Assembly (NCBI GenBank): GCA_017937065.1
Contig: JAGBEI010000009.1
Location: forward strand, 1 to 64,000
DNA length: 64,000 bases
Direction of reading: 5' to 3'
From: Clostridia bacterium
GTDB taxonomy: Bacteria > Bacillota > Clostridia > Oscillospirales > QAKW01
Shown: in pieces, positions 33,942 through 61,828 of the stretch
Layout of the letters: every line of letters begins with the position of its first letter
Numbering within the stretch: position 1 is the stretch's first letter
The notes under the pieces: model-generated
Seen by the model: the letters and a program-made list of their open reading frames with translations, nothing else
Databases searched by the model: none
What the model was told of the DNA's origin: nothing
Made by a program: the position numbers and the translations under genes

Positions 33942-36900
33942 ATGTATAACAGCAAAATGCCAAGATTTTTCTTCAGAACAATGCTCATGCTGTTAGCTGT
34001 CGTTATGCTTCTTTCGTCTTTCAGCGTTTTTGCTTTTGCGGAAACGGCGGACGGTGCGGATGAAAATTCCGTGTCGGACGGTGATGTAAGCGGAGCGGAA
34101 ATCGGTGATGAGACGTCGGACGGTACGGACGATGAGCCTATTATGCCGGACGCGGATGAGAACGATTCCATCCTCAACGGAGACGGCGAAGTGGGCGCGG
34201 AAGAAGTAAGTGACGAAGAACTGAAAAAGCTCTATATAGAGGGCTTTGAGCGTACCGGCATGTACGATGATTATTACGAAAAATATGCCGAGTACGACAA
34301 GAAGCTGGCGCCGATCGTTATTGATCCGAGAAACTATGTTTCAACAACGGCGGGTGCGCAGAAGCTTGACTCATACGAGGGTAAAAACGGCGTCGTGAAG
34401 ATGGATAAAAACGGCGAGTTTGTGTATGAGGTGCAGATTCCCGAAACGGGTATGTACGCGCTTGAACTTACATATTTCCCGATGGCGGACAAAATCACAA
34501 GAGACCTTGAATTTGCTGTCTACATTGACGGAAAAGCTCCCTTCTCCAGCACGGAGAGCTTAACGCTTAAGCGCAACTGGGCTGACGAGACCGATGAGGC
34601 AAGCTATGACTCGGTAGGCAACGAGCTGCTTCCGGCGCAGGTTTTGTCCCCGAAGTGGCTGACGCTTGACTTTTACGAGCCCAACGGCAACTATAACGAT
34701 CCTATTAAATATTATCTTGAAAAGGGTACGCATACCATCACTTTGAAGTCTGTTTCCGGCACTTTTGCGATGTCGCAGATCAGAATTCACAATGACGGTA
34801 CCCTTATATCGTATGATGAATATATCGCTCAGAACGATGCCAAGGGAGCGGCGGACGCGTCGACGTATTTTGAACTTGAGGCGGAGGACTATGTTGACAA
34901 GACAGACTCCATCATGCAGAATGCGTATGACAGAAGCGATCCCAAGGTTACGCCTTACAGTGTAAGCAAAACCACGCTGAATACCTTCGGCGGCGCTAAC
35001 TGGAATACAAGCCTTGGCAGAGTAAATTATACAATCAATGTTGAGGAGAGCGGCTATTATGAGCTGTCCTTCAGATACAGACAGTCATTCCAGCGCGGTG
35101 CGACGATTTACAGAAGACTGTATATCGACGACGTTGTGCCTTTCAACGAAGCGCAGTCACTGGCGTTTGACTACGGCTCCGGTTATCAGTATACCGTTGC
35201 GGGAAGAACTAAAGAGGACGGTACGTTTGAGCCTTATAAGGTTTACCTTGAAAAGGGCACCCATACGTTCTCGCTTGAGGCTGTTATCGGTGACATGGCG
35301 CAGGCAAGCCGCGATGTTGAGCAGGCGGTATACCAGCTCAACTATATCTACCGTAAAATCATTATGATTACCGGTACTTCTCCCGATACAAACCGTGACT
35401 ATGAACTTTTTGACAGCGTTTCCAATCTGAAAGCCATGCTGCTTCAGATTTCCGATTCGCTCAAGACTATAAAAGCAAATGTCGATGCGGTTTCTACAAA
35501 TACCGGCGGCGAAAGCGAAATACTCAATACTCTTGCTATACAGATTGACAGCTTTCTCCAGAAGCCGTATACAATTCCTTCGCGTCTTTCTACCTTTAAA
35601 GATAATATAAGCACGCTCGGCTCGTGGATGATTGAAATCAGAGATATCCCGCTGCAGCTTGATAAGATTATTTTTGCCGGTGCAGATGTTAAGACCCCCG
35701 GCTATAAGGCGAACGGATTTGAAAAGATAGCTCATGAGGTAAGAGCGTTTGTCTCCTCCTTTGTTGATGACTATACCGCTATCGGCGGCACCTCCAGCGA
35801 GGAGGACAGATCTATCACAGCTTGGGTAGGAACGGGACGTGACCAGGCTATCACGCTCAAAACACTTGTTGATAACTACTTTACTCCCGACACGGGTATA
35901 AAGGTAAATGTTTCGCTTGTTCCTCTGGGCGTATTGTCAAAGGCGATCGTTGCCGGACGCGGACCTGACGTTGCACTTCACGTTTCGCGTTCCGAGCCGA
36001 TGAACCTCGGCTTCCGTAATGCGCTTGTAAACCTCAACGAGTATGACGATTATGATGAGGTTATCAAGAGATTTACCGATTACGCCACTGTTCCGTATAC
36101 TATGGATACTGTTGACGCAGACGGCAATGAGGTGCATAAGGCATTTGCGCTTCCCGAGACACAGAACTTTACTATGCTGTTCTACCGCAAGGACGTATTT
36201 GACGAGCTGAAAATCAAAGTTCCCAACACCTGGGACGAGTTTGACGCAATTCTTCCTATTATACAGGAAAACAATATGTCAGTCGGTATTGAGTCGGCAA
36301 TCTCGACCAACTTGTTCTTTACATTTATTATGCAGAACGGCGGCGAGGTTTATTATGAGGACGGCTCTCAGACCAGATTTGAAGAAGAGTATGCCGTTGA
36401 TGCGTTTACCAAATGGACTAATTATTATACGCTCTATGATTTCCCGCTGTCTTACAGCTGGTACACACGTTTCAGAAACGGCGAAATGCCGCTTGTATTT
36501 GAGTCCTATTCAAATATCACATACCTTGCCGAGTCTGCACCTGAGCTTAAAGGTCTGTGGGGCGTTGCACCGCTGCCCGGCACCGTAGATTCGACCGGTA
36601 AGATTAACAGAACGGAAAGCTCTGTCGGTCTTTCCGCGTGCTGTATAGTTAAGAACAAAACCCACAGCGCCGAGATTGCAAAGCGCAGAGAGGACGACTC
36701 ATGGGAGTTCCTCAAGTGGTGGACCTCCACCGATACAATGGCAGAGTACGGCAACCGTATAGAAATGGCTATCGGTCCTGTCGCCAGATATACAACCGCC
36801 AACGTAGAGGCGTTTGAGCTTCTCAACTGGACAACGGAAGAGGCTTCCGCCATCAAGGAGCAGCGCGAATGGGTTAAGGAATATCCCGAGCTTGTCGGCG

Positions 36901-37064
36901 GCTACTATGTCAGCCGTTCAATCGTCAACGCATTCAGAAACGTAACAAATAACTATACAAACCCCAGAGAGATGCTGTTCTATTATAACGACCAGATTAA
37001 TGACGAGATTTGGCGTAAACGTATGGAATATGACTTGTATGTTCCGGAGGAGGCGAATAAATAA
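33942..37064 (+). CDS. Giant extracellular solute-binding protein with CBM-like N-terminal domains
   Basis: The 1,040-residue protein starts at ATG 33942 (GCGGAGG). The signal peptide ends near VFAFA-ET (residues 1-26). An acidic linker (about 27-100) follows. Two beta-sandwich domains of CBM35/6-like appearance span about 130-290 and 303-470 (each with a YxVxIxETGMYxLxLTY / NVEESGYYELSFRY strand and an LEKGTHTxxL strand). A helical spacer runs to about 615, then a family-1 sugar-binding protein fold about 620-1035 (WVGTGRDQAITLKTL, MLFYRKDVFDEL, NTWDEFDAI). There is no lipobox Cys. It overlaps the permease gene by 1 base. Confidence 0.88.
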   Translation: MYNSKMPRFFFRTMLMLLAVVMLLSSFSVFAFAETADGADENSVSDGDVSGAEIGDETSDGTDDEPIMPDADENDSILNGDGEVGAEEVSDEELKKLYIEGFERTGMYDDYYEKYAEYDKKLAPIVIDPRNYVSTTAGAQKLDSYEGKNGVVKMDKNGEFVYEVQIPETGMYALELTYFPMADKITRDLEFAVYIDGKAPFSSTESLTLKRNWADETDEASYDSVGNELLPAQVLSPKWLTLDFYEPNGNYNDPIKYYLEKGTHTITLKSVSGTFAMSQIRIHNDGTLISYDEYIAQNDAKGAADASTYFELEAEDYVDKTDSIMQNAYDRSDPKVTPYSVSKTTLNTFGGANWNTSLGRVNYTINVEESGYYELSFRYRQSFQRGATIYRRLYIDDVVPFNEAQSLAFDYGSGYQYTVAGRTKEDGTFEPYKVYLEKGTHTFSLEAVIGDMAQASRDVEQAVYQLNYIYRKIIMITGTSPDTNRDYELFDSVSNLKAMLLQISDSLKTIKANVDAVSTNTGGESEILNTLAIQIDSFLQKPYTIPSRLSTFKDNISTLGSWMIEIRDIPLQLDKIIFAGADVKTPGYKANGFEKIAHEVRAFVSSFVDDYTAIGGTSSEEDRSITAWVGTGRDQAITLKTLVDNYFTPDTGIKVNVSLVPLGVLSKAIVAGRGPDVALHVSRSEPMNLGFRNALVNLNEYDDYDEVIKRFTDYATVPYTMDTVDADGNEVHKAFALPETQNFTMLFYRKDVFDELKIKVPNTWDEFDAILPIIQENNMSVGIESAISTNLFFTFIMQNGGEVYYEDGSQTRFEEEYAVDAFTKWTNYYTLYDFPLSYSWYTRFRNGEMPLVFESYSNITYLAESAPELKGLWGVAPLPGTVDSTGKINRTESSVGLSACCIVKNKTHSAEIAKRREDDSWEFLKWWTSTDTMAEYGNRIEMAIGPVARYTTANVEAFELLNWTTEEASAIKEQREWVKEYPELVGGYYVSRSIVNAFRNVTNNYTNPREMLFYYNDQINDEIWRKRMEYDLYVPEEANK

Positions 37065-38023
37065 TGGCTACTGTTTCCAGTAAAGAAGTCGAGCTTCTTA
37101 AAAAGTCGCGGCTTACATTTGGGGAAAAAGCCCATCTTACATGGAAACGTATGAAGGATAATAAAGTAAACTATTTTCTTATTCTTCCGTTTTTAATCTT
37201 TTTCCTGTTATTCACGATCATTCCGGTTCTGTCGTCGATCGTGCTTTCATTCACAAGATACGATATCCTCAACGCGCCGGTTTTTGTCGGCTGGGATAAC
37301 TATCTTAGAATGTTTCTTGAGGACGAGGTTTTCCTCATAGCTTTGAAAAATACTTTCCAGTTCGCGGTTATAACCGGTCCTGTTTCGTATTTTCTCTGTT
37401 TCGTATTCGCGTGGTTTATCAACGATTTGCCGCCTATTGCCAGAGCGACGTTTACCGTTATCTTCTACGCACCGACGCTTGCAAATATCTACTTTATATT
37501 CCAGTATATTTTCAGCGGCGATATGTACGGACTTTTAAATTCGTTTTTAATTCAGTTCGGACTTATAAACGAACCTATTCAGTGGCTGACAAATACCGAT
37601 TATATGCTGAACATTGTTATTTTCGTTCAGCTGTGGTGCAGCTTGGGTACCGGATTTCTGGCGTTTGTCGCCGGTCTCCAGAACCTCGACCCGTCGCTTG
37701 TTGAGGCGGGCGCCATCGACGGTATAAGAAACAGATTTCAGGAGCTTATTTACATAATTCTCCCGCAGATGGGCGGCTCGCTCATGTTCGGTGCGGTTAT
37801 GCAGATTTCTCAGGCGTTTTCTGTCGGCGGCATTTCGTCAGCGCTTGTCGGCTTCCCGTCTATCGACTATGCGGCGCACACGATAGTTTTGCATATTTCC
37901 GACTTCGGTAATACGAGGTTCGAGCTGGGGTATGCGTCGGCGCTGTCCGTTGTTCTGTTTGCTATAATGCTCGGTATTAAGGGCATTGTAAACAGACTGC
38001 TCAGACGTTTTTCTCATGATTAA
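37064..38023 (+). CDS. ABC sugar transporter permease, LplB/MalF type
   Basis: The 319-residue membrane protein has six hydrophobic helices and the cytoplasmic EAA loop near residue 212 (VEAGAIDGIRNRFQELIYIILP), which docks the ATPase. It pairs with the next gene as a heterodimeric channel for a complex carbohydrate. It is coupled to the solute-binding protein gene by a 1-base overlap (TAATG). Confidence 0.92.
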   Translation: MATVSSKEVELLKKSRLTFGEKAHLTWKRMKDNKVNYFLILPFLIFFLLFTIIPVLSSIVLSFTRYDILNAPVFVGWDNYLRMFLEDEVFLIALKNTFQFAVITGPVSYFLCFVFAWFINDLPPIARATFTVIFYAPTLANIYFIFQYIFSGDMYGLLNSFLIQFGLINEPIQWLTNTDYMLNIVIFVQLWCSLGTGFLAFVAGLQNLDPSLVEAGAIDGIRNRFQELIYIILPQMGGSLMFGAVMQISQAFSVGGISSALVGFPSIDYAAHTIVLHISDFGNTRFELGYASALSVVLFAIMLGIKGIVNRLLRRFSHD

Positions 38024-38043
38024 TGGAAAGGAGATTATTGTAG

Positions 38044-38898
38044 ATGTCAAAGTTAAGACGAAATAAAGTCGCAATAGCAGGCGATATTACTACATATATT
38101 CTGCTGCTGCTCTACGGCGCATTTATGGCATTACCGCTGATCTATTCCGTTATTCAGGCGTTTAAACCGTATAATGAGCTGTTTATCTTCCCGCCTCGCT
38201 TTTTTGCAAGGCAGCCTACTCTCGGCAACTTCTCCCAGCTGTTTGACCTTACGTCATCTACCTGGGTTCCGTTTTCAAGATACGTGTTCAACACCATTTT
38301 GAATACCGTTGTAGGAACGGTTTTGCACATTATCGCTGCGGCGATGTGTGCCTATCCTCTTGCCAAGAACAACTTCCCCGGCAAAAAGCTTATCTTCAAC
38401 GTAGTTGTATGGTCGCTTCTTTTCTCGGGCGGTGTTCTTGAAATCCCCGTATATCTTGTAATGTCTACCTTGGGCATTATAGATACATACTTTGCGTACT
38501 GGCTGCCGGAAATCGCGGTTGCAATGGGTACCTTCCTGCTGAAACAGAATATGTCGGAGATTCCGGACGCCATGATAGAGGCGGCGCGGATAGACGGCGC
38601 GGGCGAATGGAAGATACTGTGGCGCATTGCAATGCCCGCCGTCAAGCCTGCGTGGCTGACGCTGGCAATCTTCGCATTCCAGCGGAACTGGAACGCAACA
38701 TCGTCTTCCTATATATATACGGAAACTATCAAAACACTTCCTACCGCACTCAGCCAGATAACGGCTACCGGTTCTGTTGCGCGTGCGGGTGAGGCGTATG
38801 CGGCGTCGGTACTGATGCTTGTACCTCCTATAATATTCTTTATACTTGCTCAGAGCAGTACGGTTAAGACAATGGCCCATGCGGGTATTAAGGGTTAA
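38044..38898 (+). CDS. ABC sugar transporter permease, LplC/MalG type
   Basis: This 284-residue permease has six helices. The EAA loop is near 180 (IEAARIDGAGEWKILWRIAMP). It is the partner of the preceding permease. The ribosome site GGAAAGGAG precedes it by a normal distance. The genes share family with the oligosaccharide LplABC systems. Confidence 0.92.
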   Translation: MSKLRRNKVAIAGDITTYILLLLYGAFMALPLIYSVIQAFKPYNELFIFPPRFFARQPTLGNFSQLFDLTSSTWVPFSRYVFNTILNTVVGTVLHIIAAAMCAYPLAKNNFPGKKLIFNVVVWSLLFSGGVLEIPVYLVMSTLGIIDTYFAYWLPEIAVAMGTFLLKQNMSEIPDAMIEAARIDGAGEWKILWRIAMPAVKPAWLTLAIFAFQRNWNATSSSYIYTETIKTLPTALSQITATGSVARAGEAYAASVLMLVPPIIFFILAQSSTVKTMAHAGIKG

Positions 38899-38912
38899 GG
38901 GGGTAGAGATAA

Positions 38913-40445
38913 ATGAAAAAAAGTCTGAAAACAATCCTGCTGTCGCTTCTCATTGTTATAATGTCAGTCACGATGGCAGCTCCCGCGCTTGCATACATAC
39001 CTTATAATACTTATAACTATAATTACTACGGTGAAACTGTCGGCAGTCCCTCCGGTTATGTTCCGGAAAAGGTTTACCTTGCCGAGGATCTCGGAATAAG
39101 CTCTATCCACAGCCCGACCGATATCTATGTCAGCCCCGATGAAGAGATTTATTTTCTTGACCTCGGCGGCGATAATGCCCGCGGTCGTATGTGTATCTTT
39201 GATAAAGACTTTAAGCTTATCCGCGAGTTCAAAAAGCTGAAGGATATTGACGGTTCGGATTATTACATGAACAATCCGAGCGGCGTTACCGTTGATAAGG
39301 ACGGATATATCTATCTCTGCGATACCGATAACAGGGCGCTTTTAAAGCTTACAAAAGACGGGCAGATTGTCATGAAGTATGAACAGCCCGGCGACGATGT
39401 ATTTGACGAGTCATATACCTATCAGCCCTTTAAAGTCGTAATCGGTATTAACGGTGCGGCGTATGTAATTTCCAAGGGCTGTCTTGACGGTATTTTGGAA
39501 TTTGACGTTGAAGGCAATTTTGTCCGTTTCTTCGGTGCTCCTAAGGTTCAGCTCAGTGTCGGCGACTATCTTCTGATGTACTGGCGTAAAATTTTCCGTG
39601 CGTTCGGCGGCTCCGATGTTGACGAGAACTTCGTCACCTTCGTTCCCACCGAGTTTGAAAATGTCGATATAGACGAGCATGGATTTATTTTCTCGACCGT
39701 CATTGCCAGTGAGTCATCTGTCGATGAGGTCTCCAAGCTGAACTTTACAGGCTCGAATGTTCTGAGTCCTACTACAAAGAGCACAAAGAAAATTTCCGAC
39801 AGTCTTTCAAGAAACTACGGTGACCTTGAGACGCTGGGTAAGGACAATGACAACAACTTTGTTGATATCGTTGTCGACGACGACGGATTTTTCTCTGTTC
39901 TTGACTCAAAGCTTTCAAAAATATTCGAGTACGACGCCGAGGGCAACCTTGTATTCGTCTACGGCGGTGCAGGTCAGCAGGCGGGTACAATGATTCAGGG
40001 CTCGGCAATGGCAAAGCTCGGTACAAAGACGCTTATAACCGATAAAATCGGATGCAGTATCACCGTTTACAGACTTTCCGACTACGGTCAGTATCTGCAT
40101 GACGCCGTTGTTCTTTACAATAAGGGACTTTACAGCGATGCAGAACCGCTTTGGCGCGAAGTCCTCAGATACAATGCCAATTCGGATATTGCTCATGTAG
40201 GTATCGGTAAGGTTTACTACATGAACGGTCAGTATAAGGAAGCGATGAACGAGTTCAAACTCGCAAATGACCGTGAGAATTACTCCCGCTCATACGAACT
40301 TTACAGAAAAGACTATATAAGAAGCAATTTCGGTCTGTTCATGACAGTGATTTTGATTCTGATAATTCTTATCGTGCTTTGGCGCTTCTTCGGCAAAAAG
40401 ATTATTAACAGCATCAAAGGAAAAAAAGAGGGGGGTGTACAATAA
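38913..40445 (+). CDS. Secreted NHL-propeller/TPR protein with C-terminal membrane anchor
   Basis: The 510-residue protein has a signal peptide (residues 1-27, ends ...PALA-Y). Residues about 50-400 form an NHL-type beta-propeller, with repeats such as NPSGVTVDKDGYIYLCDTDN. Residues about 405-468 are two TPR-like units (ALYNKGLYSDAEPLWREVL). A single C-terminal helix (about 473-493) is followed by a basic tail, so the protein should face outward and be anchored. Role unknown; the propeller may bind glycans or a partner. It overlaps closely with the YIP1 gene (adjacent stop and start). Confidence 0.85.
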   Translation: MKKSLKTILLSLLIVIMSVTMAAPALAYIPYNTYNYNYYGETVGSPSGYVPEKVYLAEDLGISSIHSPTDIYVSPDEEIYFLDLGGDNARGRMCIFDKDFKLIREFKKLKDIDGSDYYMNNPSGVTVDKDGYIYLCDTDNRALLKLTKDGQIVMKYEQPGDDVFDESYTYQPFKVVIGINGAAYVISKGCLDGILEFDVEGNFVRFFGAPKVQLSVGDYLLMYWRKIFRAFGGSDVDENFVTFVPTEFENVDIDEHGFIFSTVIASESSVDEVSKLNFTGSNVLSPTTKSTKKISDSLSRNYGDLETLGKDNDNNFVDIVVDDDGFFSVLDSKLSKIFEYDAEGNLVFVYGGAGQQAGTMIQGSAMAKLGTKTLITDKIGCSITVYRLSDYGQYLHDAVVLYNKGLYSDAEPLWREVLRYNANSDIAHVGIGKVYYMNGQYKEAMNEFKLANDRENYSRSYELYRKDYIRSNFGLFMTVILILIILIVLWRFFGKKIINSIKGKKEGGVQ

Positions 40446-41075
40446 ATGGATAAGGCTTTTGCTTTTAAGGGCACTATAAACCCATTTAAAATAGTCAACC
40501 ATCCCATTGACACTATTGAATCTCTCAAAGAGAAAAAGAACGGCTCGATATTTTCCGCGACTATAATCCTGGCACTTTTCACAATCTCGGAAATTATACT
40601 TGACGTAATGAAGGGTTTTATACAAAACACTTCGCGTATTCAGGACTTTAATGTCATTATGGTTCTGGCTCGCTCGCTGTTTATGGTTTTGCTGTTTGTT
40701 GTGGCAAACTGGGCGCTGTGTACACTGCTTGACGGCGAAGGACGTATGATAGATATTTACGTATCCATCTGTTATTGTCTGATACCGCTTGTAGTTGCGC
40801 GTATCGTGGAGACGGTTGCCTCCAATATCCTGACGGCGGACGAATATGTATTCGTTGATATGATTGTTCTTTGCCTGAATCTCTGGTTTGTATGTCTTGC
40901 GCTTTTTGCACTGAAGACTATTCATAACTACTCACTGGGCAGAACTATATTTAACGTTATTATTACACTTATAGGTATGGCAATTATTTTCTTCATCATT
41001 TTCCTGTTTGTCGTTCTTATGCAGCAGCTGTACATCTTTATCGCGACAATTGTTACAGAGCTAATGATGAGATAG
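40446..41075 (+). CDS. YIP1-family integral membrane protein
   Basis: The 209-residue protein has five predicted transmembrane helices (about 35-55, 72-92, 99-120, 138-158, 165-195), typical of the Yip1 domain. It starts immediately after the NHL stop codon, with the ribosome site GAGGGGGG inside the upstream gene end. Such proteins recur in DUF5696 loci of Bacillota; their role is unknown. Confidence 0.8.
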   Translation: MDKAFAFKGTINPFKIVNHPIDTIESLKEKKNGSIFSATIILALFTISEIILDVMKGFIQNTSRIQDFNVIMVLARSLFMVLLFVVANWALCTLLDGEGRMIDIYVSICYCLIPLVVARIVETVASNILTADEYVFVDMIVLCLNLWFVCLALFALKTIHNYSLGRTIFNVIITLIGMAIIFFIIFLFVVLMQQLYIFIATIVTELMMR

Positions 41076-41093
41076 AAAGGAGAGTATTGATAA

Positions 41094-43454
41094 ATGAAAT
41101 TTAAAAAGGTTTTATCTTTGATACTGACAGCTTGTCTTATTATTTCAATGCTCTCGGTATTTGCATTTGCGGAACCTGAGGATGATTATGCCGTCGAAGA
41201 TACATCAGGCGACACCGCCGATGGTGAGGACGGTACTGCCGATGAAAACGGCGGTGACGGCGAAACTACCACTCCCGACGGTGCCGACGTTGTAGTTGAC
41301 TCCGAGCATATGACCGGTGACGGAACGATAGGAAATGTTGCCGACCTGTCGCAGTTTACCCTGGCGTCTGAAAATGATAATCTTGCATTTTATGTAAACG
41401 ATATCAACGGCTTTTTTGCTCTCTATTACAAAAAGACTGGGGCTATTTGGTATTCCAACCCCATCGACTGGGAAAAGGATGTCATTGCCCAGGCGGCAAA
41501 TAAGGAAAATCTCCAGTCTCAGCTGATAGTTACTTATCTTAATGCCAGCTATGACATCATCAGTGTTGCTTCATGCCAGGCACATATCGTTTCCGAGCAT
41601 GACGGTAACAGACAGATAATGACTTATGTTTTCAGCGGCGCTACCCGCAATTTCTCGATACCGGTTGCTTATGAGCTTAAAGAGGACTATCTTGATGTTC
41701 AGATTATAGTGGATGATATCGAGGAAAATTCAGATGCAAGAATAACTCAGATCACATTGCTTCCGTTTCTCGGTGCAGGCGGTCTGGCTGACAACGGTTA
41801 TGCCCTGATACCGGACGGCAGCGGTTCTCTTATGGAGTTTAATAAAATCTGTAAGAATTTGACACAGTATACCGGATATATATATAACCGTGACGTTACC
41901 GCTTCATCAAACAATACATCTTATGTTGACCTTAACGAGACGATAAGCCTTCCGGTTTACGGCATTCAGAAAAACGGTGCGGCATATCTCTCGGTGATTA
42001 CGGAAGGCGCGGGTACAGCGGCTATTAAGTGCAATGTAAGTAAAATGTACAACTCATATAACAGCGTCAGCTCGCATCTGTTACTGCGTGATACTCAGAC
42101 GCGCCGCAGCGCTACCGGTACTGCAAATACCGAAAGTATGTATTACAGCGACAATATGTGCGGTAATATGTCCATGCGCATTTATCCTCTTGATAATGAT
42201 AATTCGAGCTATGTCGGCATGGCTAAGCGGTACAGAAAGTACCTGATAGACGAAGAGGGTCTGTCTCCTCTTGACGGCACAAGCTCGTATGTCAATTCTC
42301 TTAACATCAACCTTTTCGGCGCCGTAAAATCACCTATGCATTTTCTCGGTATTCCCTATACCGGAGTTAAGGCGCTTACCACCTTCTCGGATGTAAAGAG
42401 TATTATCGACGATTTAAAGGGTAAGGGTATAAATAATTTAGTTATCACAATGTCCGGCTGGTCCGGCGGAGGACTTGAGTCGTCTATTGATATGGATTTC
42501 AGTCCGGAGTCAAAGCTGGGCGGAATGAAGGGCGCAAAGGAGCTTATTGCCTACGCCGAGGAGCAGGGAGTAAACCTGATTTTTGATAATGACGTTCAGT
42601 CGTTCTACTCCGGCTCATCAAAGGTAAAGAAATTTAAGCATACAGCGTATTCGCTGGCGGCAACCCCCGTTACTGTTTATCCGTTTTCCAAATCACTCAA
42701 CAGGTCGGTTATCAGCGATAAATTCAATCATCTTATACATCCCAATTATATGGTTGAGTTTGCCAATACGTTTGTTGACAACGCTATGAAGCTTGGAGTA
42801 AAGAACTTTTCGTTCAATACCGCCGGTACCGATCCGTATGCTGCATATAACGATGACAGCATGATTACAAGAGATAAGTCGGCAGACCTCATGAAGGAGC
42901 TCTTCAAAAATGTTGCCGATAAGACAGACGGTATTGTCAGTACAAGGGTCGGAAACTCATTTGTTCTCGGCAGTGTGGATAATATTGTCGAGGCTCCCGT
43001 TTACTCCAGCAGCCTTATCATGGCGCAGACAACGGTTCCGTTTTATCAGATAGCGCTCCGCGGCTATGTGAACATGTCCGCAGAGGCAATGAACCTCTCC
43101 TCCGAGGTCTCTGAGCTTGAACTGAAATGTGCCGAATCGGGACTCAGCCTTTATTACCAGCTCATGGACGCCGACTCAACTGCGTTTCAGAATACTTCAT
43201 TCAGCGATTACTATGCATGCTCATACGATGATTATTTTGATATCATGACTTCTGCTTACGGCAGAATGAAACAGATATATGATGCTGTCGGTGCAAGCAG
43301 CATTACAAATCATGAAATTAGAAGTGACACGCTCAGAGTCACCACCTTCTCAAACGGTGCCAAGGTCTATGTCAATTACGGCGAGGAGGCTGTGACGGTA
43401 GACGGCATCAAGATTGACGCCAGAGCGTACACTGCTGTGGGAGGTGCTAAATAA
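41094..43454 (+). CDS. DUF5696 secreted protein, glycosidase-like architecture
   Basis: The 786-residue protein has a signal peptide (1-26, ending AFA-E), an acidic Asp/Glu/Gly-rich linker (27-80), a beta-sandwich (about 90-370; FALYYKKTGAIWYSNPIDWE and YDIISVASCQAH) resembling the N-terminal domains of GH31-like enzymes, and a TIM-barrel-like part (about 380-780). Signature segments are INNLVITMSGWSGGG near 451, FDNDVQSFYSG near 503 and YVNMSAEAMNL near 665. No enzyme activity is documented to my knowledge. It overlaps the next permease by 1 base. Confidence 0.85.
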   Translation: MKFKKVLSLILTACLIISMLSVFAFAEPEDDYAVEDTSGDTADGEDGTADENGGDGETTTPDGADVVVDSEHMTGDGTIGNVADLSQFTLASENDNLAFYVNDINGFFALYYKKTGAIWYSNPIDWEKDVIAQAANKENLQSQLIVTYLNASYDIISVASCQAHIVSEHDGNRQIMTYVFSGATRNFSIPVAYELKEDYLDVQIIVDDIEENSDARITQITLLPFLGAGGLADNGYALIPDGSGSLMEFNKICKNLTQYTGYIYNRDVTASSNNTSYVDLNETISLPVYGIQKNGAAYLSVITEGAGTAAIKCNVSKMYNSYNSVSSHLLLRDTQTRRSATGTANTESMYYSDNMCGNMSMRIYPLDNDNSSYVGMAKRYRKYLIDEEGLSPLDGTSSYVNSLNINLFGAVKSPMHFLGIPYTGVKALTTFSDVKSIIDDLKGKGINNLVITMSGWSGGGLESSIDMDFSPESKLGGMKGAKELIAYAEEQGVNLIFDNDVQSFYSGSSKVKKFKHTAYSLAATPVTVYPFSKSLNRSVISDKFNHLIHPNYMVEFANTFVDNAMKLGVKNFSFNTAGTDPYAAYNDDSMITRDKSADLMKELFKNVADKTDGIVSTRVGNSFVLGSVDNIVEAPVYSSSLIMAQTTVPFYQIALRGYVNMSAEAMNLSSEVSELELKCAESGLSLYYQLMDADSTAFQNTSFSDYYACSYDDYFDIMTSAYGRMKQIYDAVGASSITNHEIRSDTLRVTTFSNGAKVYVNYGEEAVTVDGIKIDARAYTAVGGAK

Positions 43455-44503
43455 TGGCTGAAGCTGTAAATAACGATGCTTTAAATCCTGCTGAGGAAAA
43501 CTCAGAAGCTAATGCTCCGAAAAAGGTAAAAAAGATTAAACCTGAAAAGGTTAAAGCCAAAAAAGAGAAAAGCACTAAAAAGTCAGAGCCTTCGGATAAC
43601 TCAAAAAAGAAAAACCGCAAGCGTATGTCATATGAACGTAAGCAGAGCTTTGTCGGATTTATGTTTACGCTTCCGTGGCTTATCGGATTTCTGATGTTCT
43701 TTTTTATCCCGGCGATTAAGTCTATAAACTTTTCGCTTTCTGACGTTAAAATTTTTGAAGACTATGCCACCGAGTGGAATAATTTTCAAAACTATTCCAA
43801 CATTTTTAAAGATGCAACCTTCTTGAGAAATCTCAGCAGCACTTTCGGCGACCTTGCGATAAACGTGCCCATCATTCTTGTTTTCAGCTTGTTTGTTGCG
43901 GTGCTGCTCAACCGTAAATTTATCGGCCGCGGAATTGCAAGAGCTGTTTTCTTCCTTCCGGTTATCGTTACTACGGGTGTTGTTATGACCGCGTTTAACG
44001 GTGCGTCCGATACCTCTGCGGTTTTTGAAGGCGATGTATCAAACGGTATTATGTTTTCTACGATGAATGCGACTGAGGTCTTGGGAAGTCTGGGACTCGG
44101 AGAGCAGATAACCGGATATATGATTGCTATTTCAGACCGTATATTCGACGTTGTTTGGGATTCGGGTATACAGATAATCTTGTTCCTTGCGGCACTCCAG
44201 AGCATTTCGCCCGCGCTTTACGAAGCGTGTGACGTTGAGGGTGCTACCGCGTGGGAAAAATTCTGGCTTATCACATTCCCGAGCGTGTCTCCTATCATTC
44301 TTGTAAATATTGTTTACACGATAGTTGATACTTTCTCAGACCCGTCAAACGCCGTCCTAAGCCAGGTTGACGCTTTGGTAACGACCACATTCAATTACGG
44401 AAATGCTGCCGCAATAGTTTGGGTCTACTTCGCAATCGTTTTGGTTATTATCGGTGCCGTGTTCCTGGTTTGTAAACGGCTTATATTCTATTCGGTAGAT
44501 TAA
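43454..44503 (+). CDS. ABC sugar transporter permease with Lys-rich N-terminal extension
   Basis: The 349-residue permease has a cytoplasmic extension of about 58 residues very rich in Lys (KKVKKIKPEKVKAKKEKS and following) before the first helix near 66. The EAA motif lies near 258 (YEACDVEGATAWEKFWLITFP). The charged tail is unusual for this family and could contact another subunit or nucleic acid. It is the second MalF/LplB-like member of the locus. Confidence 0.88.
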   Translation: MAEAVNNDALNPAEENSEANAPKKVKKIKPEKVKAKKEKSTKKSEPSDNSKKKNRKRMSYERKQSFVGFMFTLPWLIGFLMFFFIPAIKSINFSLSDVKIFEDYATEWNNFQNYSNIFKDATFLRNLSSTFGDLAINVPIILVFSLFVAVLLNRKFIGRGIARAVFFLPVIVTTGVVMTAFNGASDTSAVFEGDVSNGIMFSTMNATEVLGSLGLGEQITGYMIAISDRIFDVVWDSGIQIILFLAALQSISPALYEACDVEGATAWEKFWLITFPSVSPIILVNIVYTIVDTFSDPSNAVLSQVDALVTTTFNYGNAAAIVWVYFAIVLVIIGAVFLVCKRLIFYSVD

Positions 44504-44517
44504 GGGGGTGCAGTTAA

Positions 44518-45525
44518 ATGAATATTACAAAAGCTATTGTATCGCAGTTTACTGCACATAAGGGCAAAAAGACAGATAAGCGTCTGTGGCTGAATATTAT
44601 TTCCAAGTTTATCGGCAAGCTGGCTGTTTCGCTTATACTGATAGGACTTGCGTATGTTATCCTATATCCGCTTATTTTCTGTATATCGCAGGCGATACGT
44701 CTGCCGGCGGACATGTATGACCCGCGTGTAATTTATATTCCGCAGCATTTTACATGGCAGAATTTTAAGGATGCTTGGTCTTTTCTTGAGTATCCGAGAA
44801 TTCTGATGAATACCATAAATGTATCTCTGTGGCCCACACTTTTGCAGCTCTGTACATGCGCTCTTGCAGGTTACGGTTTTGCGAGATTTAAGTTTAAGGG
44901 CAAGGGTCTGATGTTCGGTCTGGTTATCCTGACCTTCATCGTTCCTCCGCAGACTATTTCGGTTACGACATACACTACGTTCCGTTATTTTGACCCGTTC
45001 TATATTTTCTCAGGTCTTAATTTAGTAGGAATAATGCCGGCAGATTATATAGACATTACGGATACCTTGTGGTCATTTATTTTACCGGCGCTGTTTGCCA
45101 GCGGTATTAAGAGCGGTTTGTTCATTTTCGTTTACAGACAGTTCTTCCGCGGCTTTCCGAAGGAGCTTGAAGAGGCAGCTTATATTGACGGCTGCGGCTC
45201 TTTCGAGACCTTCCTTAAGATACTCGTTCCCAACGCTGTTCCGGCGTTTGTCACGGTATTCTTGCTTAGCCTTGTATGGTATTATAATGACTACTATACG
45301 GTTCCGCTGTTCCTGCCTCAGACAGAGGTGCTCTCCAGCTCGCTGAACGATATGTTTACAAACATGACTACTGTCGGCGGTTTGTACGCGGGTGTAGATG
45401 AGGTGCTGATTTATCCTATTTGGCGTGCGGGCATTATATTGTATATTTTGCCGTTGCTTATCATGTTCCTTCTCTTCCAGAGAAAGTTTACCGAATCTAT
45501 TGCAAGATCCGGTATAGTGGGATAA
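44518..45525 (+). CDS. ABC sugar transporter permease, second MalG-like
   Basis: The 335-residue permease has an extended N-terminus (about 40 residues). The EAA loop is near 218 (LEEAAYIDGCGSFETFLKILVP). It partners with the preceding Lys-extended permease. It is the last gene of the locus, and a strong terminator follows 15 bases after the stop. Confidence 0.9.
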   Translation: MNITKAIVSQFTAHKGKKTDKRLWLNIISKFIGKLAVSLILIGLAYVILYPLIFCISQAIRLPADMYDPRVIYIPQHFTWQNFKDAWSFLEYPRILMNTINVSLWPTLLQLCTCALAGYGFARFKFKGKGLMFGLVILTFIVPPQTISVTTYTTFRYFDPFYIFSGLNLVGIMPADYIDITDTLWSFILPALFASGIKSGLFIFVYRQFFRGFPKELEEAAYIDGCGSFETFLKILVPNAVPAFVTVFLLSLVWYYNDYYTVPLFLPQTEVLSSSLNDMFTNMTTVGGLYAGVDEVLIYPIWRAGIILYILPLLIMFLLFQRKFTESIARSGIVG

Positions 45526-45540: not shown

Positions 45541-45572
45541 AAAATGTGTCCGGTTTTATCCGGGCACATTTT
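45541..45572. terminator. Bidirectional terminator between the permease locus and the AraC regulator
   Basis: AAAATGTGTCCGG / CCGGGCACATTTT with a 6-base loop; one G-T pair. T tracts on both sides serve both converging genes. Confidence 0.85.
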
Positions 45573-45574
45573 AT

Positions 45575-46351
45575 TTAATTCTTAGTTTTATTGTTTAAAC
45601 GGTATTCCTTGGGAGAAAGTCCGCACTCTCTTTTAAAAGCGCGGTTAAAGTTTCGTATCGTTTCAAAACCGCATATGTTTGAAATTTCGGTAATATTCTT
45701 ATCGGTTGAAGTGAGGTACGCCTTTGCAAGCTGTATCCTGTAGCTGTTGACATAAGCGGAGAAATTCATGCCGAAATATTTGCTGAAATAGGCGGACAGG
45801 TAACTGTAATTATATCCGAAATTCGCTGCCAGCTCTTTAAGGGTGATTTTTTTCCGATAATTGTTCTGTATATAAAAAGCAAGAGAATTTGTCAGTGCAA
45901 AGTGTAATTCATTCGACTTTTGGAGATTGCTGCTGCGATATGCTTTGCTGCATAATCGGTATAAAACGGAGCGGATTAAAAACTTGTCGCTTTTTTTATC
46001 CTGCAGCACTTTTCCGTAATATTCGCCGTCACAGCTGAATGTCGGATTTTCAAAATGAAATCCTTTTACCTCGTCGTAAAAGCTGTGAACCCAGTCGTTT
46101 GAAAACACGCACAGATAGCTCTTGCTGTACTGCCTTGTTTTATAAGAGTGAATCTGTCCGGGAAGAATAAGTATCGCCTGACCGGCATTCAGCTCAAAAA
46201 CATTTTCTTCAATTTCACACTCAAGCGCTCCGTCACTGACAAATGTCACCTCAAAGCTTCTGTGCGTGTGCTTTTGAAAGTTCAGATTTATATCATTCTG
46301 ATTATAAATATATTCGATTTTATCCGACCTGTGATTTTCAAAGTCAATCAT
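45575..46351 (-). CDS. AraC-family transcriptional regulator
   Basis: ATG 46351 follows AGGTGAT; a GTG 9 bases upstream is possible. The 258-residue protein has an N-terminal cupin-like ligand domain (ECEIEENVFELNAGQAILI) and a C-terminal two-helix-turn-helix domain (ITLKELAANFGYNYSYLSAYFSKYF and ISNICGFETIRNFNRAFKREC), the AraC signature. It probably senses a sugar and regulates the flanking glycan genes. It is 52 bases downstream of fucU, so the two may share a transcript. Confidence 0.9.
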   Translation of the reverse strand: MIDFENHRSDKIEYIYNQNDINLNFQKHTHRSFEVTFVSDGALECEIEENVFELNAGQAILILPGQIHSYKTRQYSKSYLCVFSNDWVHSFYDEVKGFHFENPTFSCDGEYYGKVLQDKKSDKFLIRSVLYRLCSKAYRSSNLQKSNELHFALTNSLAFYIQNNYRKKITLKELAANFGYNYSYLSAYFSKYFGMNFSAYVNSYRIQLAKAYLTSTDKNITEISNICGFETIRNFNRAFKRECGLSPKEYRLNNKTKN

Positions 46352-46403
46352 ATTTATCACCTGAATTTATTTTCCTCATAACAGGCATCATTGCGTCATC
46401 AGA

Positions 46404-47028: not shown

Positions 47029-50000
47029 ATGAAAAGGTTAGTATCCTGGCTGTTGTGTGCGTGCATGATAATTTCTTTGCTGAGCACAACAGGATTGTCA
47101 TTTTCTTTTGCAGTATCGTCAGATGAAACTGAATTGCAAAATGATATGCCCGAGCCGATTGTGACGGGAGCCGATTTTGAATCGGCAGCACAGAGCTTTT
47201 ATATTAATACGGGAGAAAAAACTGTTTCGGCAATAATCAAAGAGGGAACTGAATTTTCAAATCCTACCTTTACTGTTGACAGAGAAAACATTACGACTTC
47301 GCTTTATTATGATGAAAGCTGTACTCAGCCGGCGGAGTCCGTTACATATGAGCAGGTCAGCGCCGACGGTATGAAGACGTATTATCTTCTGCTCCAAGGC
47401 GACGGCATTGCCGATGTAAAATATAAGGTTGTTATTATTTCGGAAAATGCTCAGCTTGATTTCAAAAGTACCTTTTTCGACCCGACGGGAACAATTAAAA
47501 ATACCGCCGCTCTGCTTTTGCATTCCGGCAGCTTTGCTGCGGGGCAGAGAGTAACGGACACCTTTAACGGAATGAGCTATGTATTTACCGTTGGTGTAAA
47601 CGCTTTCAGCTCAATATCCGAGGCAAGGGCTGCAAATGTAAAACAGCTGATTTTAACTGCCGGCGATTATGCCGGAATAACGATTGACGGATCAGTTGAG
47701 CTTTACGGTCCCGGCTATGCCGTCAATCCGAATGTGGTACCCGATGACAGAACGGAGCAGTGGCAGCTCAGCGAAAAATTTGCCGACTCTGCCGCTGTTG
47801 CAAAAATTTCCGGTCAGATTGTAATCTCCGAGGCGGCTACTCCCGAATCTGAGGAGGGCACCGAAATTATCATTAAGGGTGTCTCAATCGGCAGCCGTAT
47901 CATGGATACCTACCGCAAGGCGTCCGCGTATAAAACAGATATTACAATCGAAAATTGCCTGCTTTCCTTTAACAGCACGGGCTTTGTGTACAGATTTGCC
48001 AACGGCAATACCGACAATACAGACGCCTCAAAGCCCAATATAGATTCGCTTACCATGAAAAACTGCCGTTATAATTTTGTAAAAGGCGACAACGGGCAGC
48101 GCGTGTTTACGGAAAACAGCCCTGCCCATGTTACACTGGACGGTTTGTATTTTGATAATAAATTTCCGACTCTCGGATATCCCAAGTGGAAGGATTCCGT
48201 AATAAACGGCAGCTATGTGGTAAAGAACTGCTATTTTGGGGATTATCTGCGTACTCCCGACGAGCGCGGAAACCCAAAGCCGACTATAATCGCGCCCACA
48301 GGTCACTCTCAGTACTGCAGTGCCGAGGGCAGGGATACGCATTTGTTATTTGAGAACAATATTGTAATTGACGCTGCGAGCGATAAGTATAATACGAGTG
48401 ATTTTGTATTTGCCGCAATTTATCCCGACGCATTTACCGATATTATCTTCAGGGACAATACGTTTATAGATAAAAATAATTATCTCAGTACACCGTTTGT
48501 TGCCGCTTCAAATACATACGCGCCTATGAACAAGGATTACTCGGACAGAATTATATTTGAGGGCAACCGTCTTATAGGATATACCCCTTTTATTACTGTT
48601 AATGATGAGACCGAGACGCTGACAAGAGGCTCAAATAATTATTACGCGCCTTTTACGGAGGACTATGCCTTAGCTCAAAACGGAACTGCGCTTTTCGGCG
48701 TGCTTGAGGGATGTGATTATTATTTGGATTATGCCAAAACGACGCTTGCCTCTCAGATGGATATGGTTATAGACCGAAAGCTTGCTGTTGTCAATAATGC
48801 CACACGTGAAGCGTCCCTTGTTATCGGTGAAGACGAAGTTTACTATTCGGATATCAAGACGTCTGACGGATTGAACAGGTATAACCTGTATTCGGATGCG
48901 GCGTGCCTGCAAAGTATAAGCGCGCTTAACAGCGAAATTGTCGGAAACGGCACTGTTGTATATGCAAAAACAACCAATGCAAACGGAGTATCCGCTGTGT
49001 ATAAGGTTTACGTCTCCGTCGGAGATGTCAATGCCGCTGAGCCCGTGACAGTCGGAAAGGAAAGCATTCCCTCGCCGTACCTTTTCTGTGAGGAAACGGA
49101 AAATATGCCGCACGGTACAAAATTTACCGTCTCGTGGGAGGATACCGAATATGTGTTTACCGCCGGTGTAAATGCGTTTGCGTCGGTATCTCAGATAATC
49201 GCGGCGCACGGCACCGACAGCGTTCCAAACGTAATAATGCCCGGCGGCGTATATAACGGTGATGTCATAGTCACAAGCTCTGTCAATTTTTACGGCGAGA
49301 ACGGCAGCACCGTGCTGACAAGCGAGCCTGATGTGACAAGCCCCGTAAAAATCGCCTGCGTGGGTGATGCCGTTACGGAAGGAAACGGTCTTTCGGAGAA
49401 TGAGCGCGCGGAAAAAAGCTATCCGGCGCAGCTTGAAAGCATACTTGCCGAAAAATACGGTGACGGTAAGTATGAGGTCAGAAACTTCGGCTGTGACGGG
49501 GCTACCGTAAACATTCAGAGCAATGCCGAAAGCGGCAGCTATAATTACTGGACATATATTTATGCAGTGCAGTATTATATGTCGCTTGACTATAACCCCG
49601 ACGTAGTAATCGTCATGATGGGCAGCAACGATACGCTGGGGCAGGCATACAGCTCTCCCGAAATGTATAAAAAGCAGTATCAGTCGCTTATTGACAGCTA
49701 TACGCAGCTTCCGTCTCACCCGGCGGTTGTTATTGCGGGTTCGCCTGCAATGAGCAGCGGACTGCGCAGTCAGCTTCTTACCGAAACAATTATTCCCATG
49801 CAGAAGCAGGTAGCTGCGGATAACGGGCTTATATATATTGATACCTATACGAAAACAAATGAAAAGCTCACCGACACGTCGTATTTCACCGGCGACCTTA
49901 GCGACGATATGAAATGCACCGAGAAGGGCTATGGCTTTATTGCGGACATAATCGCACAGGGCATTGCACCTATGCTATCGTCAAATCGCAGTATCTTGAA

Positions 50001-53000
50001 AAACGGCATTACGGTTGACCCCTCTCAGAAAACCGAAGAAACCCGGAAAATAAAGGTTGCATGTATAGGCGACAGCCTTACCTACGGCGACAAGTCCGAT
50101 AAGGGCTATCCTGTTTTTCTTCAGCAGATGCTGGACGGCGGATATGAGGTGCGCAATTTCGGCGAATGCGGCGCCGTTGCCTGCGATATGTCAACCTATA
50201 ATTATTCAGGCGGCGGCACAAGCTGGGTATATCAGGAGACCCTGCGCTATAAATATTCGATGGAATGGAAGCCGGATATTGTTATACTGATGCTCGGAGT
50301 CAACGACGCGGGCGCGCATCTGACAAACTTCCACAGTGTAAACTGGGACGGGGGTGCAGGCAGCAGTGCGGCGGCAGAATTTGAAAAGGATTATAAGGCG
50401 CTTGTTGAGAGATATCAGGGAAGCGGAGCGCAGGTATACTGCGTAAACTGCCCGTCCGGGAAAATCGAGGCGGACAGGGACGCAACCTCTGTGAAGATAA
50501 GCTGTGTCAATCCGATAATCGAGCGGGTTGCAGGCCAGACAGGCTGTAACCTTATCGATATATACAGCGAGACAAAAAACTGGGAGGATAGTATCTATAC
50601 CGATACTGTTCACTTTAATTCAGACGGTTACAAAAAGACAGCCGATTTTATATTCTCAAAGATATTCAGCGATTTTTCGGACAGCTACAATGATAAATAC
50701 GGCGAGATATCAAAAAATGCCGTGATACTTGATGCCGAAAGCGACGGTGCGCTTGCGACAGGCACTAAGGTCAAATACTCGTGGGAGGGCTCAACATACA
50801 CCTTCACATGGGGAGTAAATGCGTTTCGGTCGATAGACGATATCATAGTGTATGCAAATGAAAACGGTATTTTTGATATTCAGGTGCTTATACCCGAAAA
50901 CAATTTAAAGACGGAGGATAATAAGTACTTTTTCATAACGGCTGACGTTACAAATATTAAGTCCATTGAGGTGTACGGACAAAACCGCCTGATTGACCCG
51001 AACGATAAGTCAGCCTCTTACAGCGATGCTTCGGCGGATTGGACGCTGAGTCCGCAGTGGGATAAATATTCCGTGTCGGGCGGCACATCGTCAGTAGGCT
51101 CAGTCATTATCAGCAGTAAAAATCTTGCGGGACGCCTTGAATTTAAGGGCATTACCATGCGCGATATATTTTATGACAGGTCGCGTACGGCCGGCACCGC
51201 AGAAGACCCGCGCAATCTGTCTGTTGTTTTTGAAAACTCGATAGCAGACTTTACGGCGCTTTCAAACTACGCGGGATTTCTGTTTGACTGTAAATCACCG
51301 CGCGCTGCAAATACCGGCAGCGATTACGGCTATAACGATTTTCTTACCGTTAAAAATTTCCGCGTGGAGCACTATTTCTATAAATCTGCCTCAAATAACA
51401 GAATTGTCAATACGGGCAATATGAATAACATGATTTTTGACGGGTTCTACTTTAATGAGGACAATAACCTCTATCCCGGCAACAATGTAAGATTTGCTCT
51501 TTCTCAGTTCGGATATGTCGCAAGCACCGCTGCTTCCGCTCAGACGGGCTCGGTAATTTTCAGCGGCTGTAATTTCAGAAATGCCGAGTCACTGCGCCTC
51601 ACAATTAACGGCTATACCGATAATGCCGCAGATAAAGGCGTAACGGAAAAAGTTGTATTTGACAATAATATCGTGTATAATTGCAGCAAGGCGGCAATGG
51701 GCGTTAATTTCCAGCCCTCCTATATCACGTCCCTGAGCATTTGCGGCAATATCTTTATAAATACAGTGAGCGCTCAGCCTGTTGTCGGCAGTACCACCGC
51801 TTCAAATGACGTGGACTATGTTGAAAAAATAGGATATACAGCGCGTGACAATACATTTGTTTTGAGCGATATAACCTCAACAAGATATTTGAAATTCGGA
51901 ACAGGCACCACCGCTGACAGCACAGGCACCTACCTTGCTGAAGCGTCGGATAATTATACTGAGGCTATAATGGGTGTCGAGCCGAATTTCGGCAAAGCCG
52001 ACTATTACTATGTTGATTTTGCGCGTAATGTAAAAAATACCGATTTTGCCTTGACCTCGGCTTATTTCGGGGATAAAATAGAAAACGTCGAGATAAACGG
52101 CGATACTGTCAGTGCAAACGGCACAAACGGTCAGGTTGTCGACACGCTTGAATTTGCTTGTGTAAATCCCCTGATTTCTGCTGATGTTTACGCTGACGAG
52201 CAGTGTACCGAAAAGCTCGATAAGCTTACTCTGAGCGAGAGAGATTCCGCCGATATTTATTACATCAAGCTCAGCTATAAAGATTATTCGGGCGCGGTCT
52301 TTAAATTAAAATTCAATCTCGGTGAGGCAAAATCCTTTGCCGAGGCTTATGAGGATAAAAACGGTATAATTAAAAATACCGCGGTGCTGTATGCGCCGGG
52401 TGCTTCGGGCAAAAACGCGGGCGATAAGCTGAACGCCGTCTGGAATGACATTCAGTATGTGTTTGTATACGGTGAAAATGCCTTTGCAACACTTGAAGAA
52501 ATCCGCGATAAATTCGGCGCCGCTCCGGTGCAGATTATACTTCCTGCCGGAAGCTATGGCAGGCTTGACATTTACGGAAGCTGGAGCATATTCGGCGAGA
52601 GCTTTGCCGTAAACCCCAACGGCAGGGGCGACCAAAACCTTGACAGCAGCTGGAGCGAATACGGCGAAACGATTATTGACAATGCAGACGTCGTGATTGA
52701 CGCCTCGGCAACGCCGGGCACGGAGGGCGGCACTGATATTCTTATCAGCGGCGTAAGGCTTACGGGACGGTTTGTTGACACAAACCGTAATGAAAGCGCG
52801 TATGCAACAAATATCACTTTGAAAAATATTGTATATGACCGCTGCTTTTTGACCGGTGGGGAAAGAGAATTCAATCTTCAGAATGCCAACAGCATGAGCA
52901 GCTCGGACACTGCCGTCAACAGTGACAGCTTCAATATAGAAAACATGTTTTATATCGGTACAAACGCGTCCGGCGACCACGCACTTTTTGAGGATACGGT

Positions 53001-56000
53001 AGCGCCGTTTGTTACCATTGACGGGTTTGTTTGCGCCGATAATACACCGAGCTTCGGCAATTTTACGGTAAGCAAAACTGCGCGTAAAGTTGAATTCACT
53101 TTAAAGAACAGTTATTTTTACGGCTGCAAGAGCAGCGCCGCACTCAATGATAACCTCATTTCCTTTGTCGGTCATAATTCCGATGTTTCAAGCGAGCAGC
53201 GCAGTACTTTTGATACAAGGCTGAATGTTGAAAACAACAAATTTATTAACTGCGGAAACGAGTCCGAGTATAACGGACAGACGCTGCGCACGGTAATTGA
53301 GCTTTACCCGCAGTCATTTAACAGCATTAATTTTGTTTCAAACGAATTTGTATCGACACGTGATTTCAATTATCTGTTTGTTACAGCAAAATCCGATACA
53401 TTTTCCGTAAACCACGGGGATTATTCAGACCGCGTAACCTTTAAGGACAACAGAGTAATCGGTATAATGGCGACCTTTTTCTTAAACGAGGATACGGTTG
53501 TAGACCATTCCGACAACTACTTTGCCACATACACGTCCGATTATAAAACGGCGGCAAACGGCGACATACCGTCTGATTATAAGGCGGATGTATATCTTGA
53601 CTATGCCATGACCGTGAAACGCAGTGATATGGCTCCTGTTGTCAGCAATATCTGCGGATTTACCGTCGATAATGAAACATTCAGCGCGTACGGTTATGCG
53701 TCAAGGGATTTTACTCCGATGCCGGGCGAGGGCTGTGAGCTTTATGCGGATAAAAACTGCACATCAGAGCTTAAAATAATTGACGTTAATGTCGGTCAGG
53801 CAACGACGGCTTACATTAAGGTTACACGCGGTAATATTTCAAAGGTATACACCCTGTATGTAATGGGGGTTAAAGACCTTGCGGATATTGAATATGCAAA
53901 GGTAAGTCCGCAGACTGTCGGGGGCATAGAAAATCCTGCCGTTTATTATCCGACCCTTTACGGCGCGCCGGACGGCATCACGCTTTACACATACTATGAT
54001 AATATCTGCTACGGATTTGTGACAGGTGAAAATGTAGTTACATCAACCGCCAATATGGCGCTTTACAGCAATGAGCTGCTGGTGCCCGACGATATTTTTG
54101 AAATAAACTTTTCCATTGTTGCCGGTATCAAGCTTCACAGTAAAAATGCAAATATTTCGGGCGTTGAGGTACGCAAGCTTAAAATTGCCTGTATCGGCGA
54201 TTCTATAACTCAGGGTGTGGGCGCCGGCTCAACGGCGGACTATCCGAGCTATCTGCAAAAGTATCTTGGCAGTGAAGAGTATATTGTACAGAATTTCGGC
54301 AAGGGCTCAGCCACCGTTCAAAGCGATGAGCGCGGCTATATGGTGTTTGCAAAGCAGCAGCATGAAGAAAGCCTTGCGTTTGAGCCGGATGTTGTAATAT
54401 GTGCTCTGGGCACAAATGATTCGCGTTATAATATCTGGACGTCAAACAGCAGCTTTATTGATACTTATATTGATATAATCGACACTTACCGTGCGCTTGA
54501 CAGCAAGCCGGCAATTTATATTACGACAACACTTCAGCGCGCAGACGATTTGATGAATAACGAGCGTGTTGAAAAGAACACAATATACCTTGACGAGTAC
54601 ATTGCCAAAATGGTAGGCGGCAGGATAATCGATACCCATGATGAAATGCGGCAGTATACAAATGATACAAGCTATTTTGCCGACGCTCTACATCCCACCG
54701 CAATCGGATATGAGAAAATGGCAAACTATATCGGCTCTTGTATCGCGGCAAACATGAACAGCCTGTCGCAGACGGGAATTACACTTGACGGACTGAATAT
54801 TACAGGTTCTGTCACATCGGATGCCGTTGAATTTCCGCTTGCCGTATGCAACGCCGATATTCGTGTCGGCGCTCTCGGCAGGGCAAAAATACTTTGTTCT
54901 GAAATAACCGAGCTTATCATTGATAATACAACGCTTTCCGACGGATCGACTGTCTCAACGGAGCTTGACCTTGGCAGGTTTATTGATTTCGGCGACGGGT
55001 TTACTGTCGAAAATGAATCATCGCTTGTAATCGGCAAATCAGGTGAATATAAAATTATATCCGCTGACGGTCAGACGGTGCCCTTAATTGTAAATCTTAA
55101 ACCGGACAGCAGTGTGTTAAAAGAACTTATCAATAAGGCGCTGGGCTATTCCAACGATGATAACTTATACTGCGCTCAATCTTTCAATAATTTGCTTGAC
55201 GCCGTTTTCCTGGCGGAGCAGAAGCTTGAAAATGCGTCGCAGTCTGAGCTGGGAAGCCTTGCGGCAATGCTTCAGTCGGCGATAGACTCGCTCAAAATGC
55301 ATGATTGGGACGAGGGTAATATTGCAGTGGCGCCTACATGCAAAAGCGAGGGCGTTATAGTCTATATCTGTAAAAATGACCCGACTGAGATGTCGGTTGA
55401 GATAGTTCCGGCAGATCCCGATGCACACGTCTGGGACGACGGCAGTATAACAAAGCCGCCTTCATGTACGGAAGACGGTGAGATTACTTACATATGTGAA
55501 AAAGATGAATCGCATACAAAAACAGATACTGTCGGCGCTCTCGGACATGACCGGGACGACGGAGAGATAACAAAGAGACCCACATGTACGTCAGAGGGCG
55601 AGATAACTTACCGCTGCAAACGCGATGGCTGTGATGTTACTGAAATCAAGATAATTCCGGCAGACCCCAATGCCCATGAGTGGGGCGAATATGTGTATAA
55701 CAATGACGCTACTTATGAATCGGACGGGACAGAAACCGCAAAATGTATACGCTGTGATGTAACTGATACAAGAACAGCTGACGGCACAAGGCTTGAAGAG
55801 CCGCCGGAAACTGAAATTATCGACAGCTCAAAGCAGTTCAGTGATGTTAAGGAGGGCAGATGGTATAAAAAGTATATCGACTATGCGGCGACTTATAAGC
55901 TCATGAACGGTATGACGTCTTCAAGGTTTGAGCCTGCTGCAACTCTTACAAGGGCAATGTTTGTGCAGATACTTGCAAATCTCAGCGGTATTGATACGTC

Positions 56001-61767: not shown

Positions 61768-61828
61768 AAATGTGTTTAATATATTATACATACATTGACC
61801 TTGCAAGTCAATATACAATGAAAAATAA

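Follow-up and report, generated by a model that had tools for sequence, protein, structure and literature searches.

The eight genes at positions 33,942 to 45,525 of contig JAGBEI010000009.1 from a Clostridia bacterium (GenBank assembly GCA_017937065.1) form a dedicated, conserved unit. The window analysed here is the whole stretch from position 1 to 64,000 of this contig, 64,000 nucleotides in length. We consider the unit, with a probability of about 0.6, to be a composite importer of oligosaccharides, anchored in the envelope and of the CUT1 type, in which both permease pairs would be powered by an MsmX-type ATPase. Its parts are a giant solute-binding protein (SBP), two permease pairs (P1/P2 and P3/P4), an NHL-TPR protein, a Yip1-domain protein (YIP), and a secreted protein of the family DUF5696.

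An earlier examination of the DNA, made from the letters alone (the sequence-only reading), had described eight genes with two permease pairs, a giant binding protein, an EAA loop in each permease, no ATPase, and tight junctions at 37064, 40445/40446, and 43454. All of these features were recovered exactly where that reading had placed them, with the eight open reading frames lying head to tail on the + strand. The operon and the two features that adjoin its 3' end are as follows, where GH denotes a glycoside hydrolase family and aa amino acids.

33942..37064, + strand: giant SBP, 1040 aa; signal peptide, two putative jelly-rolls, helical segment, SBP_bac_8
37064..38023, + strand: permease P1, UgpA/MalF type, with an EAA loop (EAA-like EAGAIDG at aa 214); NCBIfam UgpA 56 bits
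38044..38898, + strand: permease P2, UgpE/MalG type, with an EAA loop (EAARIDG at aa 179); BPD_transp_1 44 bits, UgpE 86 bits
38913..40445, + strand: NHL beta-propeller and TPR protein; NHL and TPR domains, signal peptide, C-terminal membrane anchor
40446..41075, + strand: YIP, Yip1-domain integral membrane protein; PF04893 54 bits, five transmembrane segments predicted from hydropathy
41094..43454, + strand: DUF5696, secreted, beta-sandwich plus TIM-barrel, GH129/GH101-like fold; PF18952 543 bits
43454..44503, + strand: permease P3, UgpA type, with an EAA loop; Pfam/NCBIfam families, 26% identical to P1
44518..45525, + strand: permease P4, UgpE type, with an EAA loop; BPD_transp_1 55 bits, UgpE, 22% identical to P2
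45541-45572, + strand: stem loop resembling an intrinsic terminator, 13 pairs, T-rich tail; pattern match only
45575..46360, - strand: convergent AraC-family gene, candidate regulator; HTH_18 79 bits, AraC_binding

The junctions within the operon measure, in order, -1, 20, 14, 0, 18, -1, and 14 bases, the genes overlapping by 1 base at 37064 and 43454 and abutting without a gap at 40445/40446, and a purine-rich stretch resembling a ribosome-binding site precedes each of the eight starts. The upstream neighbour is pncB, which ends at 33611, and the terminator-like stem at 45541-45572 would bound the 3' end. The operon region gave no match to Rfam. A family scan detected no ATP-binding cassette (ABC) ATPase encoded within 33942-45525, and an ATPase hidden inside the operon was rejected by the family annotation together with a genome-wide ATPase search.

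That the genes belong together is seen from their distribution. The search for DUF5696 covered 399 near-complete Bacillota genomes. Forty-three genomes passed the curated DUF5696 cut-off, and 41 of them, from about 18 families, gave strong, near-full-length matches. The gene order was compared at 122 loci, 42 of them phylum-wide and 80 from named relatives found with an 11-member alignment, and SBP-P1-P2-NHL-YIP-DUF-P3-P4 proved to be the rule, being kept in most of them; the dedicated unit proposed by the sequence-only reading thus holds up on synteny. At several loci SBP-P1-P2 follows P4 or is locally absent while NHL-YIP-DUF-P3-P4 is intact, and the operon therefore consists of two separable sub-units. 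With a profile of its N-terminal half, the giant SBP was found in 41/41 DUF5696 genomes (in one of them, G108, it is cut by a contig end), and it occurs at full length in only 2 further genomes of the 399, both times near contig ends. The co-occurrence of the two proteins gives a Fisher p of 6e-54, which is only indicative as the genomes are not independent, and the eight protein distance matrices correlate with one another at 0.85-0.95, the species tree not being subtracted. Four relatives of the same family have an intact operon, and in each of them it follows pncB. Chance clustering was rejected on the recurrent gene order and the co-occurrence across genomes, and a recent mobile origin on the constant position after pncB (4/4). 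The set had also been thought not to be described as a unit, and the open-licence literature in PubMed Central (PMC), subscription papers and preprints being outside its scope, agrees with this: no paper was found that names DUF5696, links Yip1, NHL, and a sugar SBP, or describes the unit.

The unit has the parts of a CUT1 ABC importer, and it is the established knowledge of CUT1 importers and of MsmX on which a role in import is based. UgpA/UgpE-type pairs with EAA loops in all four proteins occur twice over, both being complete by Pfam and NCBIfam, and the second pair is no recent duplicate of the first, because P1 and P3 are only 26% and P2 and P4 only 22% identical. A sugar-type SBP, with an SBP_bac_8 domain and a sugar-binding-protein fold, and a shared MalK/MsmX ATPase elsewhere in the genome complete the set.

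Only one ATPase of the MalK/MsmX type is encoded in the genome, at C3:76279-77367 (429 bits, the next candidate scoring 125), beyond the window and 31 kb downstream of the operon. It carries the OB/TOBE regulatory domains (OB_MalK 58 bits, TOBE_2), and scores 599 bits to PDB 7x0q ('ABC transporter related protein') and 456 bits to Bacillus subtilis MsmX 6yir. D77, R104, E110, and K154 are residues reported for multitask ATPases (PMC7658222), and in the alignment to 6yir the protein matches all four. Among the roughly 120 relatives, a UgpC-type ATPase stands beside the operon only in Paenibacillus cellulosilyticus, directly upstream of a plasmid copy (L085 6876-7988). An MsmX-type ATPase elsewhere in the genome, and none adjacent, had been foreseen by the sequence-only reading, which apart from this one exception turned out well. 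That a shared ATPase elsewhere in the genome would power the importer is well supported at the sequence level, because the genome has one MsmX-type ATPase and almost none lies beside the relatives' operons; this single ATPase would energise both P1/P2 and P3/P4. Contig 14 of the same genome (L177 3616-6721) carries a second CUT1-like set of an SBP and two permeases with an AraC gene and no adjoining ATPase, which is likely to be another client of the same protein.

The giant SBP has an SBP_bac_8 domain at aa 647-938 (Pfam, 58 bits). Its AlphaFold2 model (pLDDT 88) contains two beta-rich N-terminal domains, which may be read as jelly-rolls, then a helical segment and the C-terminal SBP domain. 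In Foldseek searches the latter resembles binding proteins for beta-1,2-glucooligosaccharides, cellooligosaccharides, and cycloisomaltooligosaccharides, and the N-terminal domains gave weak CBM_35 or Golvesin_C matches in relatives. In the composite importer, the jelly-rolls would capture glycan fragments and the SBP domain would bind the oligosaccharide, working with P1/P2. The earlier description of eight genes with one binding protein is true of the window, but a second SBP of ordinary size (300-700 aa) lies in the neighbourhood of 105/122 loci (30/42 phylum-wide and 75/80 named), mostly preceding the giant SBP or following P4; neither the window nor its family has one at this locus. Contig 26 of the same genome (L189 6860-8293) encodes a solute-binding lipoprotein that is an orphan, without an adjoining permease.

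DUF5696 gave an AlphaFold2 model with a pLDDT of 88 and a pTM of 0.92, for which the closest solved structure in Foldseek is the GH129-like anhydro-galactosidase 5opq (E 5e-31), followed by NagBb (GH129) and the GH101 endo-alpha-GalNAcases. TM-scores by target length are 0.68-0.73 against chains of 5opq, 8rzk, and NagBb, the identity to GH129-type structures in the structural alignment is 12-14%, and sequence profiles agree independently with the likeness to GH129 (E 2e-14). DUF5696 thus has the GH129/GH101 fold and is homologous to GH129 in fold, though it is not filed as GH129; a search of 200 Bacillota with PF11308 (GH129) gave no match, but its control was also silent, which makes it uninformative on absence. 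A remote DUF5696 paralogue, a 585-aa open frame, occurs without importer genes at L049 (G006 contig 27).

In NagBb the catalytic nucleophile is Asp435, conserved as Asp486 in DagB, and even DagB does not share NagBb's second catalytic residue (PMC5698469). The alignment of the TIM-barrel sub-profile to NagBb did not reach past the nucleophile. The best-fitting column was found by counting about nine residues beyond the last aligned residue, with a latitude of about one position, and it is likely rather than proven because it lies in an extrapolated part of the alignment. It holds Asp in 97/122 sequences, in 80/80 of the named, mostly Paenibacillus set versus 17/42 of the phylum-wide set. In the window, Thr576 takes the place of this Asp, and the four family relatives have Thr or Ser. 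The end of beta-5 offers no conserved acid, being Asn in 112/122, and the residues that never vary are mostly Gly, Pro, Trp, Tyr, and Asn; D241, D267, and E681 are conserved as well. The DUF5696 of the window is probably no GH129-type hydrolase, its catalytic residue having probably been lost. Of the import and processing machine proposed by the sequence-only reading, import accords with the conserved importer set, whereas processing is weakened by the absence of the likely nucleophile despite the glycosidase fold. DUF5696 would sit at the mouth of P3/P4 and here rather hold or present the sugar than cut it, in what may be a receptor role.

The NHL-TPR protein has hydrophobic segments at 8-26 and 475-493, and NHL and YIP are fused into one protein in many lineages. 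The folds Yip1, NHL, and TPR serve in interactions or as scaffolds, and the two proteins may together form one membrane scaffold.

It may be argued that the eight genes encode two ordinary CUT1 importers, each pair importing a different product, and an active extracellular glycosidase, DUF5696, merely co-regulated with them, NHL and YIP being accessory. Two complete UgpA/UgpE pairs would suit this arrangement, the ordinary SBP of most loci would supply each pair with an SBP of its own, and an active enzyme would agree with both the GH129/GH101 fold and the invariant Asp of the Paenibacillus-type members. However, neither the window nor its family has that Asp, which is in the minority phylum-wide, beta-5 has a near-invariant Asn, and the small SBP is absent from the window's locus; we regard this explanation as rather doubtful. 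It is also conceivable, but unlikely, that DUF5696 is a glycosidase fold turned extracellular receptor of the second permease pair and NHL-YIP a new assembly subunit, the eight genes making one two-channel importer, a Gram-positive counterpart in role of SusCD. Very improbable, in our opinion, is a sensing or gating device in which NHL-TPR, YIP, and DUF5696 sense glycan of the cell wall or from outside and thereby act as gates of the permeases, with import not the main role. The scaffold folds just mentioned and a histidine kinase and response regulator near the Butyrivibrio copy would favour such a device, but the adjacent regulators differ between copies (LacI, AraC, two-component), whereas the transport genes are constant.

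The composite importer has points of its own against it. P3/P4 have no dedicated SBP at the window's locus, and the contig 26 lipoprotein, considered as the missing second SBP, is unsupported in this capacity, as it gives no match to the relatives' small-SBP profile. Moreover, the counts overweight one clade, most of the 80 named relatives being Paenibacillus and its close kin.

With respect to the substrate, the flanks of the relatives are rich in glycosidases and sugar SBPs, which include GH26 (21/87 in the named set), GH30, GH2 (mannosidase-type), GH38, GH43, GH10, GH9, GH5, and GH3; the Paenibacillus pabuli operon (L087), for example, adjoins a GH26 gene. As these flanking glycosidases vary, the copies probably serve different glycans, and the substrate probably differs from one operon copy to another. 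The sequence-only reading had suggested fucosylated or galactosylated glycans, and uptake of these specifically would be compatible with the other explanations. GH95, RbsD/FucU, and melibiase-like genes do lie 1-15 kb downstream in the window, and GH95 adjoins the operon in two other genomes (L130 and L155), which is mild support. However, the downstream genes stand beyond the terminator-like stem, the AraC and GH95 genes being near the operon yet outside it, and no GH95, FucU, or melibiase-like gene was found in the fetched stretch of the four same-family relatives; other copies adjoin mainly GH26, GH30, and GH2, but also GH38, GH43, and others. The suggestion thus fared poorly, and a fucose/galactose substrate is only possible, and quite unlikely as the specific one.

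Upstream of the GH95 gene, window positions 47029-56394 encode a secreted protein of 3121 aa that combines SLH anchoring repeats with three esterase domains of the GDSL type, possibly a cell-surface giant that binds and deacetylates glycans. Elsewhere in the window, phage structural-type genes run head to tail over about 17 kb (590-17718), which from the ORF layout and the sequence is likely to be a prophage. Near this region, on the - strand, are a transfer-messenger RNA (tmRNA; 20132-20478, tag ANNNKLAYAA) and an SmpB-like gene (21462-21926), whose vicinity is a possible phage attachment site. Six tRNA genes are clustered on the - strand at 61692-62334.

A fixed import core with swappable enzymes would allow the substrate to be predicted from neighbouring genes in soil and animal-gut Bacillota, and would provide DUF5696 and the bacterial Yip1/NHL pair with their first testable role. 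It also raises the question as to why one operon needs two permease pairs and one shared ATPase.

Like the MsmX-served CUT1 importers, e.g., AraNPQ-MsmX of Bacillus subtilis (PMC7658222, PMC5730181), the operon combines an SBP and UgpA/UgpE permeases with EAA loops with an ATPase encoded elsewhere. In contrast to AraNPQ-MsmX, it has two permease pairs, a giant SBP with two putative jelly-rolls, and three near-constant extra partners, NHL-TPR, Yip1, and DUF5696. DUF5696 shares with GH129 NagBb, the 3,6-anhydro-D-galactosidase DagB (5opq), and GH101 a beta-sandwich, a TIM-barrel, and a C-terminal beta domain, but unlike in GH129 the residue likely to correspond to Asp435 varies across the family, being Thr in the window, and DUF5696 adjoins importer genes. 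Gram-positive polysaccharide utilization loci (gpPULs) bring together a polysaccharide-degrading enzyme, a transport system, and a regulator (PMC5320581), and many relatives similarly have glycosidases and regulators near the importer. However, the eight-gene core is fixed across families while the glycosidases change, and the only enzyme-family gene of the window operon is the degenerate DUF5696. A conserved import core with exchangeable enzymes is also reminiscent, by analogy only, of SusCD of the Bacteroidota, with which the operon has no homologous part, being ABC-driven and serving a single membrane. We therefore judge it to be a system of a known kind, the CUT1 importer, with unusual and strongly conserved extra parts.

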